From an uncultured Bacteroidales bacterium (GTDB lineage Bacteria; Bacteroidota; Bacteroidia; Bacteroidales; Bacteroidaceae): a stretch of 41,033 nt of DNA. Positions 8,695-40,098 of this stretch are shown piece by piece (the stretch's first letter is position 1; each line of letters begins with the position of its first letter). The position numbers and the translations under genes are program-made. The stretch spans positions 1-41,033 of the forward strand of contig CACWTR010000020.1 of assembly GCA_902763865.1 (NCBI GenBank). The letters are read 5' to 3'. The notes beneath the pieces were generated by a model, which was not told the DNA's origin, did not search any database, and saw only the letters and a list, made by a program, of their open reading frames with translations.

Positions 8695-8788
8695 ACGACG
8701 TCTTCATTGCTTCATCGCGAACAAGCAATTGCTTCATCGCGATGAAGCAATCACTCCATCGCGATGAAGCAATCAACACGACGCGTCG
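8695..8788. repeat. Palindrome array R3: three ATTGCTTC/GAAGCAAT units at 22 bp period
   Basis: The core CATCGCGA recurs at 8713, 8735 and 8757, exactly 22 bases apart. The middle unit is a perfect 24-bp palindrome (ATTGCTTCATCG with its complement). The first has a changed right half and the third a changed left arm. CG-rich flanks ACGACG (8695-8700) and ACGACGCGTCG (8778-8788) bound the array. It lies after the HA gene stop and before the promoter at 8848. It resembles the arrays at 1777, 15723 and 30001 in layout but not in arm sequence. Confidence 0.75.
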
Positions 8789-12821: not shown

Positions 12822-12837
12822 GAATAATTCTTAATAG

Positions 12838-12876
12838 TCAATTCATAATTTATAATTCGTAATTCATAATTATTTC
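12838..12876. repeat. menA: AT-rich tandem repeat upstream of menA
   Basis: Degenerate copies of an AATTCATAATT unit (AATTCATAATT, TATAATTCGT, AATTCATAATT) fill the first bases upstream of the menA ATG. Each unit is close to self-complementary. Similar repeats occur in spacers of many Bacteroidetes. It may lie in the menA leader. Confidence 0.6.
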
Positions 12877-15681: not shown

Positions 15682-15800
15682 CAACGCGTCATAATACTCG
15701 ACTCGACACGTTGACTCGGTTTGTTTCCCACGTGAAACTTTTTGTTTCCTGCATAGAAACAGTTTGTTTCGCACGGGAAACAACCCGCCGTGACGCGTTG
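15682..15800. repeat. Palindrome array R2: three GTTTC/GAAAC units bounded by inverted CAACGCGTCA ends
   Basis: Units are GTTTC-N6-GAAAC (15723-15738), GTTTC-N7-GAAAC (15744-15760) and GTTTC-N6-GAAAC (15766-15781), with left arms 21 and 22 bases apart. The array is enclosed by a perfect 10-bp inverted repeat, CAACGCGTCA (15682-15691) and TGACGCGTTG (15791-15800). Bases 15734-15795 align without gaps to 1788-1849 (48 of 62 identical by hand count), with differences concentrated in loops and spacers. It lies beyond the rprY terminator and before the next promoter, so it is probably untranscribed most of the time. Confidence 0.8.
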
Positions 15801-27182: not shown

Positions 27183-28972
27183 GTCGGGGAATTGCCTTGT
27201 CTGTTCTGAGCGGCCCATACTGTCATTTCGCACTTTCGGCAGTCGAATTCCAGTCGGAAGCGTCTCCCGTCGCCCAGGACAAGGAAAAGCGGCTCGGTCC
27301 ATTTGCTGCCAGGTTTGCTGCTTGCCCGGTCCTTCTTGCACATTCCCCAGGCGTGGCGCAGACAGAAGCGGCAGGTCATGAGGGGGGAGGATTCATTGAC
27401 CGTTGAGCATTGACCATTGAGTATTGACCGTTGGGCATTGGGCGTTGGGCGTTGGGCATCTTTCGGTAAGGCCGAATGTTCATTGTTCAATGGTGATTGA
27501 CGGGTGGTTTCCCTTCTCCATTCTGCCAAGAGGCTTCTGGGGATGAACCAGGGCTGGGAGAAGCGCACCTCTACGTCGGTGCATCGGTATGGTGTGTCGC
27601 CGAGCTTGCTCAGGACGTCGCGGACGGAGGCGGTCTGGTCGTTTCGTGCCGGCTGATGCTCCGCCGCGAATTCCTTGCTGCGGTGTGTGCCGTCCTGTGC
27701 CGTAAAGGTCAGGCGGAAGCCTTTTTCTGTTTCTTCGAGCAGGAAACGGGCTTCGATGCGTCGCTCTGCCGTCTGTCCCTCCATGAGGCGCTCCCATTGT
27801 CGGTCGTAGCTTCGCCACAGGACAGACCCCTCCCGGCCTCCTCGTAAGGGGAAGGTTTGGTGGGGGTCAGCCGTGTAGAGATGGTTGCCCTCGGCCCTGT
27901 TCACGCGGAAGCCTTGCAGTCGTCCTTCTGCATCGAGGAAGCAGAGGCCGTCGCCGTTGCTGAAGGATTCGGTGGAGCTGACGATGATGCAGTTGCCACG
28001 CACCTCCTTCACGTGACCGACCTCGCGTCCGCGGCTCTTCGGCGTGTCGGGCGAAGCCATGTCGTCGGTCCTGCCGAAGAGGAAATAGTCGGTATAGCCT
28101 CGCGAGAAGCTGCGCGAGAGGTCGGGCTGAAAGGTGTAGGACGAACTCCCGAAGGAGGAGCGGACAAACTCCGGCCTGCGCTTTAGGATGCTGTCGATGG
28201 CCTGCCGGTAGGCGGCAGTGACGTTCTTGACGTAGGCCGCGTCCTTCAGTCTTCCTTCTATCTTGAAGCTCCCGACTCCGGCATCCATCAGGGCCTCGAG
28301 ATGTTTCAGGCGGTTCATGTCCTTGAGCGAGAGCAGGTACTTGTCCCTGATGAGGGTGTTGCCCTCTGCCGTTTGCAGCGAGAAGGGCAGACGGCAGAAC
28401 TGTGCGCACTCGCCGCGATTGGCCGAGCGACCGAAACAGTACTCCGAGGCATAGCACCTTCCGCTCAGCGAGACGCAGAGTGCGCCGTGGACAAAGACCT
28501 CGAGGCAAGCCTCCGGCACCGCCTTGTGGATGCTGCGAATCTGTTCAAGTGAAAGTTCGCGTGCTAAAACTATCTGATTGAATCCAAGTTCTTTGAGCTT
28601 CGATACTTTCTCTGCTGTTCTGTTGTCCATCTGGGTGCTTGCATGCAGGGGGATGGGCGGCAGGTCCATTCCGAGGAAGGCCATGTCCTGTACGATGAGA
28701 GCATCCGTTCCGCCCCGATAGAGCTCCCATGCCAGCCGGCGGGCATCCTCCCTCTCGTGTTCATGCAGCAGGGTGTTGAGGGTGACATAGACCTTGGCTC
28801 CGTAGCGATGGGCATAGTCGCAGAGACGTGCGATGTCGTCGGTGGTGTTGCCGGCAGCTGCCCTTGCCCCGAATCGCGGCGCACCAATATAGACGGCATC
28901 CGCCCCGTGGTCGATGGCCGCCAGCCCGCACTCGAGGTTCTTGGCAGGGGAGAGTAGCTCAATGTATTTCAT
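27179..28972 (-). CDS. U32 family peptidase (RlhA/YhbU-like)
   Basis: The 597-residue protein has the U32 signature: ELLSPAKNLECGLAAIDHGADAVYIG at the start, HASTQMDNRTA near 111, and the Cys-rich segment GALCVSLSGRCYASEYCFGRSANRGECAQFCRLPF around 165-200, thought to hold an iron-sulfur cluster. Several characterised U32 proteins are not peptidases but tRNA/rRNA hydroxylation factors; E. coli RlhA hydroxylates 23S rRNA. A C-terminal Cys-rich unit (TCRFCLRHAWGMCKKD) follows a repetitive linker. It overlaps metA by 14 bases and the zinc-ribbon gene by 4. Which reaction it performs is not settled. Confidence 0.88.
   Translation of the reverse strand: MKYIELLSPAKNLECGLAAIDHGADAVYIGAPRFGARAAAGNTTDDIARLCDYAHRYGAKVYVTLNTLLHEHEREDARRLAWELYRGGTDALIVQDMAFLGMDLPPIPLHASTQMDNRTAEKVSKLKELGFNQIVLARELSLEQIRSIHKAVPEACLEVFVHGALCVSLSGRCYASEYCFGRSANRGECAQFCRLPFSLQTAEGNTLIRDKYLLSLKDMNRLKHLEALMDAGVGSFKIEGRLKDAAYVKNVTAAYRQAIDSILKRRPEFVRSSFGSSSYTFQPDLSRSFSRGYTDYFLFGRTDDMASPDTPKSRGREVGHVKEVRGNCIIVSSTESFSNGDGLCFLDAEGRLQGFRVNRAEGNHLYTADPHQTFPLRGGREGSVLWRSYDRQWERLMEGQTAERRIEARFLLEETEKGFRLTFTAQDGTHRSKEFAAEHQPARNDQTASVRDVLSKLGDTPYRCTDVEVRFSQPWFIPRSLLAEWRRETTRQSPLNNEHSALPKDAQRPTPNAQRSILNGQCSTVNESSPLMTCRFCLRHAWGMCKKDRASSKPGSKWTEPLFLVLGDGRRFRLEFDCRKCEMTVWAAQNRQGNSPT
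27388..27500 (-). repeat. In-frame tandem repeat in the U32 peptidase gene
   Basis: On the coding strand near-copies of CCCAACG(C) and GGTCAATACTCAAT-type units run from about 27460 to 27400, preceded by TTGAACAATGAACATT. They encode a linker with DAQRPTPNAQRSILNGQ. It is inserted just before the conserved TCRFCLRHAWG segment. Such 'CAATGG/CCCAACG' unit repeats are otherwise spacer sequences in Bacteroidetes. Confidence 0.7.
27826..27876 (-). repeat. Possible second in-frame GC-rich element in the U32 gene
   Basis: The coding strand here has CCCCCACCAAACCTTCCCC, then a GGCCGGGAGGGG part, resembling GC-rich dispersed elements of Bacteroidetes. It encodes DPHQTFPLRGGREGS. Length gain over homologues seems small, so chance similarity is possible. 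Confidence 0.35.
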
Positions 28973-29876
28973 TGATGTCGAAGGGCGTTTCTTGATAGAC
29001 GTAGTAGTTGAGCCAGTTCTGGAAGAGCAGGTTTCCGTGTCCGCGCCAGGTGACGAGCGGTCCCTTCTCCGGGTCGTCGTCGCGATAGTAGTTGTAGGGC
29101 TTGTGTATGGGCAGGCCCTTGCCGAGGTCGCGCCTGTACTCCGTGTCGAGCGTCAGGGGAGAGTATTCCGAGTGGCCCGTGATGAATATCTCGCGTCCGT
29201 TGCGTGCCATCACCATCGAGACTCCGCTGATTTCGCTTTCTGCTATCAGCGTCAGTTCGGGTGCGGCCAGTATGTCCTCCCTGCGGATTTCGGTGTGACG
29301 GCTGTGGGGCATGTAGAAGATGTCGTCGAAGCCGCGGAATATAGGCAGGCGGGGCAGGAGCGGCACCTGCGGAAAGATGCCGAACATCTTCTCGGGAAGC
29401 GGGTACTTGGGAATGCCGTAGTGGTAGTAGAGCCCGGCTTGTGCCGCCCAGCATATATACATTGTGCTGGTCACGTGTGTACGGGCCCATGCAAATATCT
29501 CCGTCATCTCGTCCCAGTAGTTCACTGCTTCGAAGTCAAGGTGTTCCACGGGAGCACCGGTGATGATCATGCCGTCGAACTTCTCGGGCCGCATCTCTTC
29601 GAAGTCGCGGTAGAAGGCCCGCATGTGCTCTATGGGCGTGTTCTTGCTCGTATGGGCTTTCACCTTCATCAGGTGTATTTCGAGCTGCAGCGGACTGTTC
29701 GACAGCAGACGGACCAGGTCTGTCTCTGTCGTAATCTTCAGGGGCATGAGGTTCAGTATGGCGATGCGCAACGGACGGATGTCCTGCGTGTCGGCGCGTT
29801 GGCTGCCCAACACGAAGATGTTCTCTTCACGCAGAAATTCTATGGCCGGCAGCCTGTCGGGGAGTATAAGGGGCAT
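28959..29876 (-). CDS. metA: Homoserine O-acyltransferase MetA, probably acetyl-CoA specific
   Basis: MetA acylates L-homoserine, the first committed step of methionine synthesis. The 305-residue protein has the family catalytic set at canonical positions: Cys142 in ICWAAQ, His235 in FITGHSEY and Glu237. In characterised MetA enzymes residue 111 sets acyl-CoA choice: Gly gives succinyl-CoA (E. coli) and Glu gives acetyl-CoA (Bacillus cereus). Here GAPVEHLDF puts Glu at 111, so O-acetylhomoserine is the predicted product. The gene leads an operon with the U32 peptidase and the zinc-ribbon protein. A -7 box (TACCTTTG) lies 42 bases upstream. No SAM riboswitch fold is evident. Confidence 0.95.
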   Translation of the reverse strand: MPLILPDRLPAIEFLREENIFVLGSQRADTQDIRPLRIAILNLMPLKITTETDLVRLLSNSPLQLEIHLMKVKAHTSKNTPIEHMRAFYRDFEEMRPEKFDGMIITGAPVEHLDFEAVNYWDEMTEIFAWARTHVTSTMYICWAAQAGLYYHYGIPKYPLPEKMFGIFPQVPLLPRLPIFRGFDDIFYMPHSRHTEIRREDILAAPELTLIAESEISGVSMVMARNGREIFITGHSEYSPLTLDTEYRRDLGKGLPIHKPYNYYRDDDPEKGPLVTWRGHGNLLFQNWLNYYVYQETPFDINEIH

Positions 29877-29917: not shown

Positions 29918-29925
29918 CAAAGGTA
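29918..29925 (-). promoter_or_regulatory. metA: -7 box of the metA operon
   Basis: TACCTTTG on the minus strand. At the -33 position there is TTCT (19 bases upstream), a poor match to TTTG. The region just upstream carries a short direct repeat, GTGAAAACTGA (29935 and 29950). Confidence 0.6.
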
Positions 29926-30000
29926 CGAATAAAAGTGAAAACTGAGAAGTGAAAACTGAAGAAATTAAACCAGAAAGTTGCATCTCCACGTCATAAAGTT

Positions 30001-30082
30001 ATTTTCACGTCATGAAAATCTATTTTCAAGCTTTGAAAATTAATTTTCACGTCATGAAAATCTATTTTCACGTCATGAAAAT
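30001..30082. repeat. Palindrome array R4: four ATTTTCA-N5-TGAAAAT units at 21 bp period
   Basis: Units at 30001-30019, 30022-30040, 30043-30061 and 30064-30082 are each 19 bases with perfect 7-bp arms ATTTTCA/TGAAAAT. Three have the centre CGTCA and one has AGCTT. Two-base spacers CT, TA and CT give an exact 21-base period. A partial unit (CCACGTCAT) lies near 29986. GAAGCGTTG follows at about 30091. The array is 27 bases past the stop of the polytopic protein gene and upstream of the metA promoter. Confidence 0.85.
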
Positions 30083-30109
30083 AGTTTTATGAAGCGTTGA
30101 TTCGGGTTT

Positions 30110-31615
30110 CTATTGCAGGGCTGGCCGCTTATTGCGGGCGTAGATACAGATTTTCATCATCTGTATCATGGAGTGGGAATGATAAATCAGGTGATAGTTC
30201 TGCCTGATGAAGGCTAACTCAGCTGCTTTGCCTTCGTTCTCCGGCGCATTTGCGGGGATGCGTTCCTCCCGCATGGTTTCGCCATCCGCCAGGATGACTT
30301 CGGGGCAAGTCTCGGTCAGCCCTTTCGTTTCTGCAACGCCGTAATCGCCCTTCGACTGGAAAGGCAGGAAGATGCGGTTGCACTGAACCAGCCCCGAGCG
30401 TTGCAGAACGTTGGCACCAGCCGTCATCGTGTTGTAGTTCCAGATTGAAGCCTTTTGCTTCTCGTCCAGCGCGTTCAGCACTTCGGAGCACTCGGCAATC
30501 GCCTTCTCGCGACGTACGAGGTTGTCGGCCTTTTGCATGACAGCCTTGCGGAAGATACCCGCCAGCCCTGCCGTCAGGACTAACAGAACCAACCCGGTCA
30601 GTCGCCAGTCAAGCTTCTTTATGCTGAAGACGCTGTTGCCCAGTGCAAGGGACAGGGAGACGACTATGAGCGGAGAGAAAAGCGTAAAGTAATGGGCATA
30701 ATAGGCTCTGCCTGTCGTCAGAAGCGTGAGAAGAAAAGCCGAAAGTGTGAACCATACGAGCTTCTTGCCGCGGTTCCAGCCGCAGCAGAGCATCATGGTC
30801 AACGACAGGGCGGGGAAGTAAAAACCGCTGGCCCGCCACAGCGGTTCGTGCGCGAACCGGTCAACATAGAGCAGGTTGAAGCCGATATTTCCGAACCAGT
30901 AATCCCCCATGTGCTGTAGGCCGTACAGCCCGGCATACAGTCCGCCCACAGACAGGACAACCAGGCACCCTCCCAAGAACACCAGCCAGGTTTCCTTGGC
31001 CAGCTTCGTGAATTCCTTCCGGTGCAAAAGGTCGAGGAATATGTACAGGCAGACTGCAAACGCGGGCATGATATTGTTCAGCCGGAAATGTGCAACGATG
31101 CCAATGCAGACACCGATGCAGAAGCAGTCGCGAAGGCTTATCTCCTGCCCCTTGAACTCCTGCCTGACAAGGTAGTATATCGGTATGCTCAGTGGAAGAA
31201 GGCTCCATGTCTCGGTCATGTTGCCCCCCTCCCGCAGGCAAGCAAAGGACATTGCCAACAGCGCGGGAAGATACCTCAGGGCATGGTTCCCCATCAGGAA
31301 GGCGGAGATACGGAGCCAACAAAGGAAGGTGGCCGACAGACAAAGACTCAACAGGCAGTATAGACCGGTGTGCCCGGGCGAGAGCCACAAGCCGATGGCA
31401 TTGACGGCATAGAGCAGGAAACCCTTGTGGTCGAACAAATCGACATAGGGGATGCGCCCTTGCAACATGCCAAGTCCCACCTGTTGGAAAATGGCGGGGT
31501 CGTAACCACTGTACGAGGTAAAGGGATTGAGCGCAAGGGCGTAGCTGAAGAAGCAACAGGCGAACCCTGCAGCTATCGACAACGCTATGTCGTTCCTCAA
31601 TCCACTTCGCATCAT
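30110..31615 (-). CDS. Polytopic GT-C-like glycosyltransferase
   Basis: The 501-residue protein has about eleven hydrophobic helices, then a soluble C-terminal part (about 365-501). An early loop, SGYDPAIFQQVGLGMLQGRIPYVDLFDHKG, with acidic residues in the first extracytoplasmic loop, is typical of GT-C enzymes, which transfer sugars from polyprenyl-phosphate donors outside the membrane. Its ATG overlaps the stop of the GT2 gene (ATGA). With gtrA and GT2 it forms the usual three-part set: donor synthesis, flipping and transfer. The acceptor glycan is unknown. Assignment as GT-C is by topology and context, not by a diagnostic motif. Confidence 0.7.
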   Translation of the reverse strand: MMRSGLRNDIALSIAAGFACCFFSYALALNPFTSYSGYDPAIFQQVGLGMLQGRIPYVDLFDHKGFLLYAVNAIGLWLSPGHTGLYCLLSLCLSATFLCWLRISAFLMGNHALRYLPALLAMSFACLREGGNMTETWSLLPLSIPIYYLVRQEFKGQEISLRDCFCIGVCIGIVAHFRLNNIMPAFAVCLYIFLDLLHRKEFTKLAKETWLVFLGGCLVVLSVGGLYAGLYGLQHMGDYWFGNIGFNLLYVDRFAHEPLWRASGFYFPALSLTMMLCCGWNRGKKLVWFTLSAFLLTLLTTGRAYYAHYFTLFSPLIVVSLSLALGNSVFSIKKLDWRLTGLVLLVLTAGLAGIFRKAVMQKADNLVRREKAIAECSEVLNALDEKQKASIWNYNTMTAGANVLQRSGLVQCNRIFLPFQSKGDYGVAETKGLTETCPEVILADGETMREERIPANAPENEGKAAELAFIRQNYHLIYHSHSMIQMMKICIYARNKRPALQ

Positions 31616-39908: not shown

Positions 39909-39954
39909 TGGCTGGTTTTTTGGCTTCTCGTGAGTTGTCGGCTGCCGACGGCAC

Positions 39955-40070
39955 GTGAGCCGTTGGCTTGTGACTCGTGAGCCGTTGGCTTGTGACTCGT
40001 GAGTCGTTGGCTTGTGACTCGTGAGCCGTTGGCTTGTGACTCGTGAGCCGTTGGCTTATGACTCGTGAGT
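39955..40070. repeat. 22-bp tandem repeat between glnS and the TPR gene
   Basis: Five full copies of GTGAGYCGTTGGCTTGTGACTC start at 39955, 39977, 39999, 40021 and 40043, followed by a partial copy at 40065. Variation is almost only C/T at the sixth base, plus one G/A. Junctions form GACTC-GT-GAGTC near-palindromes. A diverged copy precedes at about 39929. Confidence 0.92.
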
Positions 40071-40098
40071 CGTTTTGGCGCGACTTGCGTTCCAGTGT

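Follow-up and report, generated by a model that had tools for sequence, protein, structure and literature searches.

What kind of element repeats one palindrome four times at a fixed interval between two genes of an uncultured Bacteroidales bacterium, and does it act as DNA, as RNA or as a mobile passenger? The locus occupies positions 30001 to 30082 of a stretch of 41,033 nucleotides, which was analysed whole and is called the window here. It consists of four 19-bp palindromes of the form ATTTTCA-N5-TGAAAAT with a period of 21 bp (spacings 21, 21 and 21), and the arms ATTTTCA and TGAAAAT are perfect in 4/4 units. A sequence-only reading of this DNA had described four 19-bp palindromes with perfect 7-bp arms, two-base spacers and a 21-bp period, and that description is exact. 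The array and its neighbours are laid out as follows.

28959..29876, minus strand: downstream gene metA, homoserine O-succinyltransferase (PF04204, E 6e-133), with its start 124 bp from the array
29987..30000, no strand: left flank, CACGTCATAAAGTT, resembling the family flank consensus (..ACGCGTCATAAAAGTT)
30001..30019, no strand: unit 1, ATTTTCA-CGTCA-TGAAAAT, G-type loop
30020..30021, no strand: spacer CT
30022..30040, no strand: unit 2, ATTTTCA-AGCTT-TGAAAAT, A-type loop
30041..30042, no strand: spacer TA
30043..30061, no strand: unit 3, ATTTTCA-CGTCA-TGAAAAT
30062..30063, no strand: spacer CT
30064..30082, no strand: unit 4, ATTTTCA-CGTCA-TGAAAAT
30083..30099, no strand: right flank, AGTTTTATGAAGCGTTG, resembling the family flank consensus (AGTTTTATGACGCGTTG)
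30110..31615, minus strand: upstream gene, a 501-aa ORF, with its stop codon 27 bp from the array

The 501-aa ORF (30110-31615) has no Pfam family at E 0.001, and relatives of its protein are absent from genome_contigs. About 75 bp from the array, TACCTTTG (29918..29925, minus strand) resembles the Bacteroidetes -7 promoter box TAnnTTTG. Minisatellites with 7-bp units occur at 27394-27459, 12824-12871 and 29931-29960 of the window, the last between the array and metA. At up to 2 mismatches, the unit pattern has 4 matches in the window, all in the array, against 0.10 expected, and 0/100 dinucleotide shuffles of the window reach that number. Arrays of at least three palindromes with 7-bp arms are likewise absent from one shuffled copy of 441 kb of the organism's own genome, in which bases were permuted inside 100-bp blocks.

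The array belongs to a family of dispersed intergenic elements that only one species of the genus has so far been seen to carry. In the own genome (2.91 Mb in 75 contigs, 84% complete), BLAST with the array returns at least 83 matches on both strands (40 of 84 candidates scored), and pattern searches find 66 four-unit arrays at up to 3 mismatches of 56 as well as 282 exact units and 206 adjacent unit pairs. The reversed control pattern has 0 matches there in each pattern search. The clusters found number 62, comprising 58 of four units at 21 bp, one of five, two of two and one weak single unit; base-by-base reading covered the 58 four-unit arrays, all of which are distinct. In 838 kb of own DNA not centred on arrays, a looser limit yields 24 four-unit arrays, one of three units and one of two. 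Unit number is therefore near-constant in this genome, nearly always four. One unit sits at a contig end (G000:C3:15-33) and one array near another (G000:C30:45223-45304, L005); contigs that end in or near arrays suggest that the arrays may break assembly and that 66 may be an undercount. A different tandem repeat, about 5.5 copies of the 22-bp CGTGAGCCGTTGGCTTGTGACT, lies at 39954-40074 of the window, and similar arrays with other copy numbers occur elsewhere in the genome (L038 14660, L044 2412, L054 11348).

Conservation within the units extends beyond the arms. Arm positions are invariant in 3246/3248 cases over the 58 arrays, and the loop rule N-R-N-Y-N is obeyed by 232/232 loops, which makes the half-site roughly ATTTTCAHR (H, any base but G; R, purine), present twice in inverted orientation around 1 bp. 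The earlier remark that arms matter and loops do not thus keeps its first half and loses its second, since the loops are restricted too. Loops are drawn from nine types, grouped as G type (CGTCA, CGACG and their complements) or A type (the remaining loops), and 54 oriented arrays hold 47 distinct cores. Read in either direction, the order of loop types is AAGG in 31 of the 58 arrays, AGAG in 13, GAGG in 10 and something else in 4.

Loop complementarity exceeds within-array permutation between units 1 and 2 (z 5.0) and between units 3 and 4 (z 4.1), whereas the loops of units 2 and 3 are less complementary than permuted (z -4.3). Adjacent loop pairs match at 0.519 of positions against 0.343 in permutations, while nested pairs, those opposed in one long hairpin, match at 0.228 against the same 0.343, with 0/2000 permutations as low. 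This pairing pattern indicates that the array is polar, has two dyads and avoids forming one long perfect palindrome. The complementarity of units 1 and 2 and of units 3 and 4 is not what a plain row of four operators predicts, and it could also reflect a pair of neighbouring DNA hairpins or cruciforms.

Near the core, both sides share a flank consensus (..ACGCGTCATAAAAGTT [core] AGTTTTATGACGCGTTG..). Farther outward, A or T tracts recur about every 22 bp and then fade, and the flanks are loosely inverted. Over 30+30 flanking bases, the 41 array pairs whose cores agree at 97% or more are 54% identical, compared with 48% for the other 1390 pairs. Near-identical cores in such unlike flanks indicate that conservation or copying acts on the core independently of the adjoining sequence.

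The features of an operator array, namely dyad-symmetric conserved half-sites and helical phasing, are present throughout, in the arms, the R/Y rule and the 21-bp period alike. Invariant arms, a symmetric R/Y rule, two-turn phasing and near-fixed number together point to sites for a putative dimeric protein. We hold with about even confidence that the arrays are dispersed intergenic recognition arrays acting on the DNA level for such a protein; the phased recognition array proposed by the sequence-only reading remains the best-fitting candidate from sequence. In each element, four 19-bp sites with dyad symmetry follow one another at intervals of exactly two helical turns, an arrangement that would let four dimers of a putative sequence-specific DNA-binding protein occupy one helix face in a row, perhaps as two pairs. 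The uniformity of the arms could come from copying or gene conversion instead of binding.

Positions of the arrays were assigned with a home-made simple gene caller, which placed 54 arrays with both neighbours; 4 more are too near an end. Placement inside genes as often as behind stop codons, which the sequence-only reading had named as speaking against it, is not seen: 0/54 arrays are inside a gene by strict gene calls, with six falling inside short low-scoring ORFs under looser calls. The 54 placed arrays lie in 29 tandem, 17 convergent and 8 divergent gaps, against 74.6% tandem, 9.6% convergent and 15.9% divergent expected from intergenic length. Arrays are over-represented in convergent gaps (17 against 5.2 expected, p 7e-6), and their share in divergent gaps (8/54 against 15.9%) does not depart from expectation (p 1.0). 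Among the tandem arrays, 23/29 are closer to the upstream stop than to the next start (p 0.002). The earlier claim that arrays lie behind stop codons survives as a bias, with 46/54 downstream of at least one gene; it fails as a rule because 8/54 stand between divergent genes, as chance predicts.

Array polarity relative to tandem genes is 18 one way and 9 the other. A Pfam scan covered 98 of the 108 neighbours of the 54 arrays, incomplete ORFs being dropped, and no family occurs in more than two of the 98 proteins, so no regulon is visible; a common regulon or carrier gene was accordingly set aside. The element would act on the DNA level in intergenic gaps, more commonly behind stops and between convergent genes, and a chromosome-organising or DNA-topology role would fit better than control of particular genes.

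The family is patchily distributed. A two-unit pattern at up to 3 mismatches is found in 0/36 congeners and 0/24 other genomes of the order, with the own genome positive. Across 393 surveyed genomes of the order, the family occurs in number in the own genome only; a single match, with 2 mismatches, turns up in each of two further genomes, and the control pattern matches once in a third. An exact scan of 84,980 species genomes, from which the own genome was apparently left out, returns 12 stretches in 7 genomes. Their pair counts are 182 in RGIG6784, 26 in RUG12472, 24 in RGIG7992, 41 in RGIG6215 and 13 in RGIG6899, all Bacteroidales-type MAGs, and 2 in UBA3734 and 1 in Erysipelatoclostridium An173. 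Four of the five Bacteroidales-type MAGs come from sheep or buffalo gut according to their titles. The An173 pair, a lone exact two-unit match in an AT-rich genome (L081 1012-1051), is taken as chance. The exact pattern has 0 matches in viral_contigs, and a phage origin was rejected.

RGIG6784 shows the same architecture, with four units at 21 bp in 10/10 arrays fetched and N-R-N-Y-N in 44/44 loops of 11 arrays. Its arms vary at positions 4 and 5 only (16 and 7 of 88 half-sites), and the internal loop order of the own genome is not seen in these 11 arrays. MetA identity to the own protein is 90% in RGIG6784 and 88% in RGIG7992, on par with the nearest congeners, and the congeners nearest by MetA are without the four-unit family. 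This closeness points to the Bacteroidales as the order of the window's organism. Because the family is missing from 36/36 congeners, nothing essential to the genus depends on the arrays. The 66 arrays of near-fixed size with identical arms, missing from the searched congeners, are a strong sequence signal. If a protein binds them, they would make up a recognition system dispersed over the chromosome in a little-studied group, the Bacteroidales, and their turnover between relatives would be a natural experiment in which genome-wide sites and their protein change together.

The window also holds a second element, which the sequence-only reading had suggested to be of one class with the first.

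8707..8772, no strand: three 22-bp palindromic units of the TTGCTTCATCGCGATGAAGCAA type, a separate, architecturally similar family

That grouping does not hold, as the array at 8707-8772 belongs to a family with other arms and mostly three 22-bp units. Unit pairs of this second family are most numerous in the close congener G019, with 184; the own genome has 77, and the 39 other genus members searched have 0 to 8. In the own genome, a first set has three units in 10/10 arrays, and a larger set has three in 13/17, four in two and two in two. G019 has exactly three units in 32/35 arrays over 698 kb, many with another core, ACATGT; in the same 698 kb, no ATTTTCA array of at least two units was found. 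Scanned without bias for palindromic arrays of 20-23 bp, 838 kb of the own genome contain 25 arrays of the first family, 14 of the second and 2 that belong to neither; 695 kb of G019 contain 32 second-family arrays and 2 of neither family. The same scan, run over 291 kb from four further congeners, detects none.

Mixed second-family arrays, in which one unit has the G019-typical ACATGT core, occur at L049 15010-15075 and G000:C4:9046-9089. Three imperfect GTTTC..GAAAC palindromes at about 21 bp lie at 15719-15782 of the window, with a similar place at L046 2805; their centre resembles parS. The imperfect array at 15719 was missed by the unbiased scan.

Upstream of metA, G019 carries a three-unit array where the own genome has its four-unit array. 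Neither family has an array at metA in 28 other congeners, although three of these loci hold a single second-family-like unit, and the metA loci of RGIG6784 and RGIG7992 are likewise without an array. Over all own loci, which were partly picked for arrays and include a metA locus picked for the window's array, an own array stands at 5/11 array-bearing gene ends of G019 against 15/128 array-free ends (p 0.010); a less biased subset gives 2/4 against 3/40 (p 0.057). For gaps of at least 120 bp at all loci, the counts are 5/7 against 8/37 (p 0.017), or 4/6 against 8/37 without metA (p 0.042).

A further version, which used own DNA not centred on arrays, omitted metA and applied slightly looser orthologue limits, finds an own array at 4/19 array-bearing and 7/159 array-free ends of G019 (p 0.019). 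Controlled for gap length, it gives 4/10 against 4/36 at 120 bp or more (p 0.055) and 4/6 against 2/17 at 200 bp or more (p 0.021). Two of these four shared ends flank one array, leaving three independent gaps, two of them with a family change. The shared-slot counts are 0/1 against 2/7 for G062 compared with the own genome and 1/2 against 1/17 for G019 compared with G062. The coincidence of G019 array ends with own array ends at orthologous genes is no more than suggestive. A bolder and rather doubtful proposal is a fast-evolving chromosome-marking system of Bacteroidales in which some intergenic slots are kept between sister species while the array class and its presumed cognate protein are exchanged (four 21-bp ATTTTCA units versus mostly three 22-bp TTGCTT units) and unit number stays near-fixed per class.

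Two observations, the lack of the family in congeners and the near-identity of cores whose flanks differ, require some process of copying or homogenisation, by which the cores may have been spread or made uniform, and they make a selfish repeat the main rival to protein recognition. Such a repeat would resemble REP/BIME elements or MITEs, being non-autonomous, moved by a transposase in trans and tolerated behind genes without host function. We consider it possible, though on the unlikely side. Copying from few sources would explain both the limited loop types and the uniform arms, and 66 dispersed copies with none in genes by strict calls, a patchy presence among close relatives, a gene-end bias and near-identical cores in unlike flanks are all as a selfish repeat would have them. 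The metA locus is also without an array in G061 and G062, though both genomes carry the family.

The arms, however, are invariant while the flanks diverge, unlike a decaying copy. Y1 transposases (PF01797), the only transposases compared, occur in 2/7 array-bearing genomes (own and G062) against 2/9 array-poor congeners, in a set of incomplete genomes of which G019 is only 62% complete, and no transposase appears among 25 of the 132 families found in the 98 neighbour proteins. Four orthologous gaps were compared for empty sites; none was alignable and no empty site was seen. Were the family mobile, it would be a class of repeats that retain their symmetry and count when the unit is copied.

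An RNA hairpin, serving as a bidirectional terminator or 3'-end stabiliser and folding as one long hairpin or as two adjacent ones (units 1-2 and 3-4), is a clearly less probable reading. Folding itself is strong: the minus strand of the array with its flanks reaches -40.4 kcal/mol (z -7.7, 0/200 shuffles as good), AGTTTT follows the last unit, and both the enrichment behind stops and in convergent gaps and the excess complementarity of adjacent loops agree with a hairpin. The loops that would be opposed in one long hairpin are nevertheless less complementary than permuted, and divergent gaps show no shortage of arrays. In the 29 tandem arrays, read on the transcript strand, G.U is not above A.C inside loops (16 against 22), nor in the two-hairpin pairing (36 against 46) or the long hairpin (58 against 62). 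Since neither pairing prefers G.U to A.C, DNA rather than RNA is favoured, and pairing kept on the transcribed strand is not seen. By a crude detector, a terminator-like hairpin already precedes the array at 4/26 array gene ends, against 9/203 other ends, and no Rfam family reaches its gathering score in the window.

The weakest candidate, and a very improbable one, is a curved-DNA or topoisomerase (gyrase-like) site, at which phased A/T tracts would bend the DNA in regions behind genes that collect supercoils. A4/T4 tracts do continue outward in the flanks with a spacing of about 22 bp, the convergent bias agrees, and bends predicted from wedge values are raised over shuffles in the left flank (41 against 32 degrees, 39/54 above), the right flank (44 against 33, 37/54) and the 172-bp span (70 against 56, 36/54). 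The core, however, is predicted to bend less than its shuffles (30 against 43 degrees, only 13/54 above), the mean bend of the 172-bp spans, 70, hardly differs from the 69 of 59 other gaps, and curvature leaves the sequence-specific arms unexplained. With the core not bent and the flanks mildly raised against shuffles and no higher than other gaps, curvature was discarded.

Putative recognition arrays for a dimeric protein can be set beside several known systems. Noc, SlmA and ParB (at parS) recognise tens of palindromic sites over the chromosome, mostly as single sites. The likeness of parS to the arrays extends to a TTTCAC half-site, with a dyad spacing 3 bp shorter in parS. CRISPR is excluded by spacers of 2 bp here, against unique spacers of at least 20 bp. 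Among the open-licence papers searched on tandem palindromes, REP, intergenic repeats of Bacteroidetes and rumen Bacteroidales, and Noc-like sites, no listed title or abstract opening describes such arrays.

REP/BIME elements with their RAYT proteins (GTAG and CGTC families) are short intergenic palindromes present in many copies in some species, in which tandem groups occur (PMC3733652). The present arrays are likewise intergenic, multi-copy, palindromic and species-restricted (66 arrays, 0/54 in genes). Unlike REP palindromes, which carry a conserved GTAG or CGTC tag at one end, the core here has no end tag: CGTC occurs in loops only, and in the 54 oriented arrays mostly GTT or ACT precedes the core and AGT, AAG or AAC follows it. 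Also unlike REP/BIME elements, the arrays are practically always tandem, nearly always of four units and of one period. Membership in the REP/RAYT system was rejected on the absent end tag and on cognate Y1 (IS200-like) tyrosine transposases that do not track the arrays.

BrickBuilt, a MITE of Porphyromonas gingivalis, is reported to consist of 23-nt direct repeats with a leader and a tail that has small inverted-repeat ends, in 19 copies in one strain (PMC4596501). Its host and the window's organism probably belong to the same bacterial order. Both elements are tandem repeats of similar period with flanking segments, always intergenic and species-specific. The units here differ in being palindromic, in their 21-bp period and in numbering four in 58 of 61 clusters of at least two units, and the main text of the BrickBuilt report (PMC4596501) has no word starting with "palindrom". 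Although two tested REP features, the end tag and a Y1 transposase that follows the arrays, are not borne out, the arrays resemble dispersed intergenic palindromic repeats of the REP/BIME and BrickBuilt kind.
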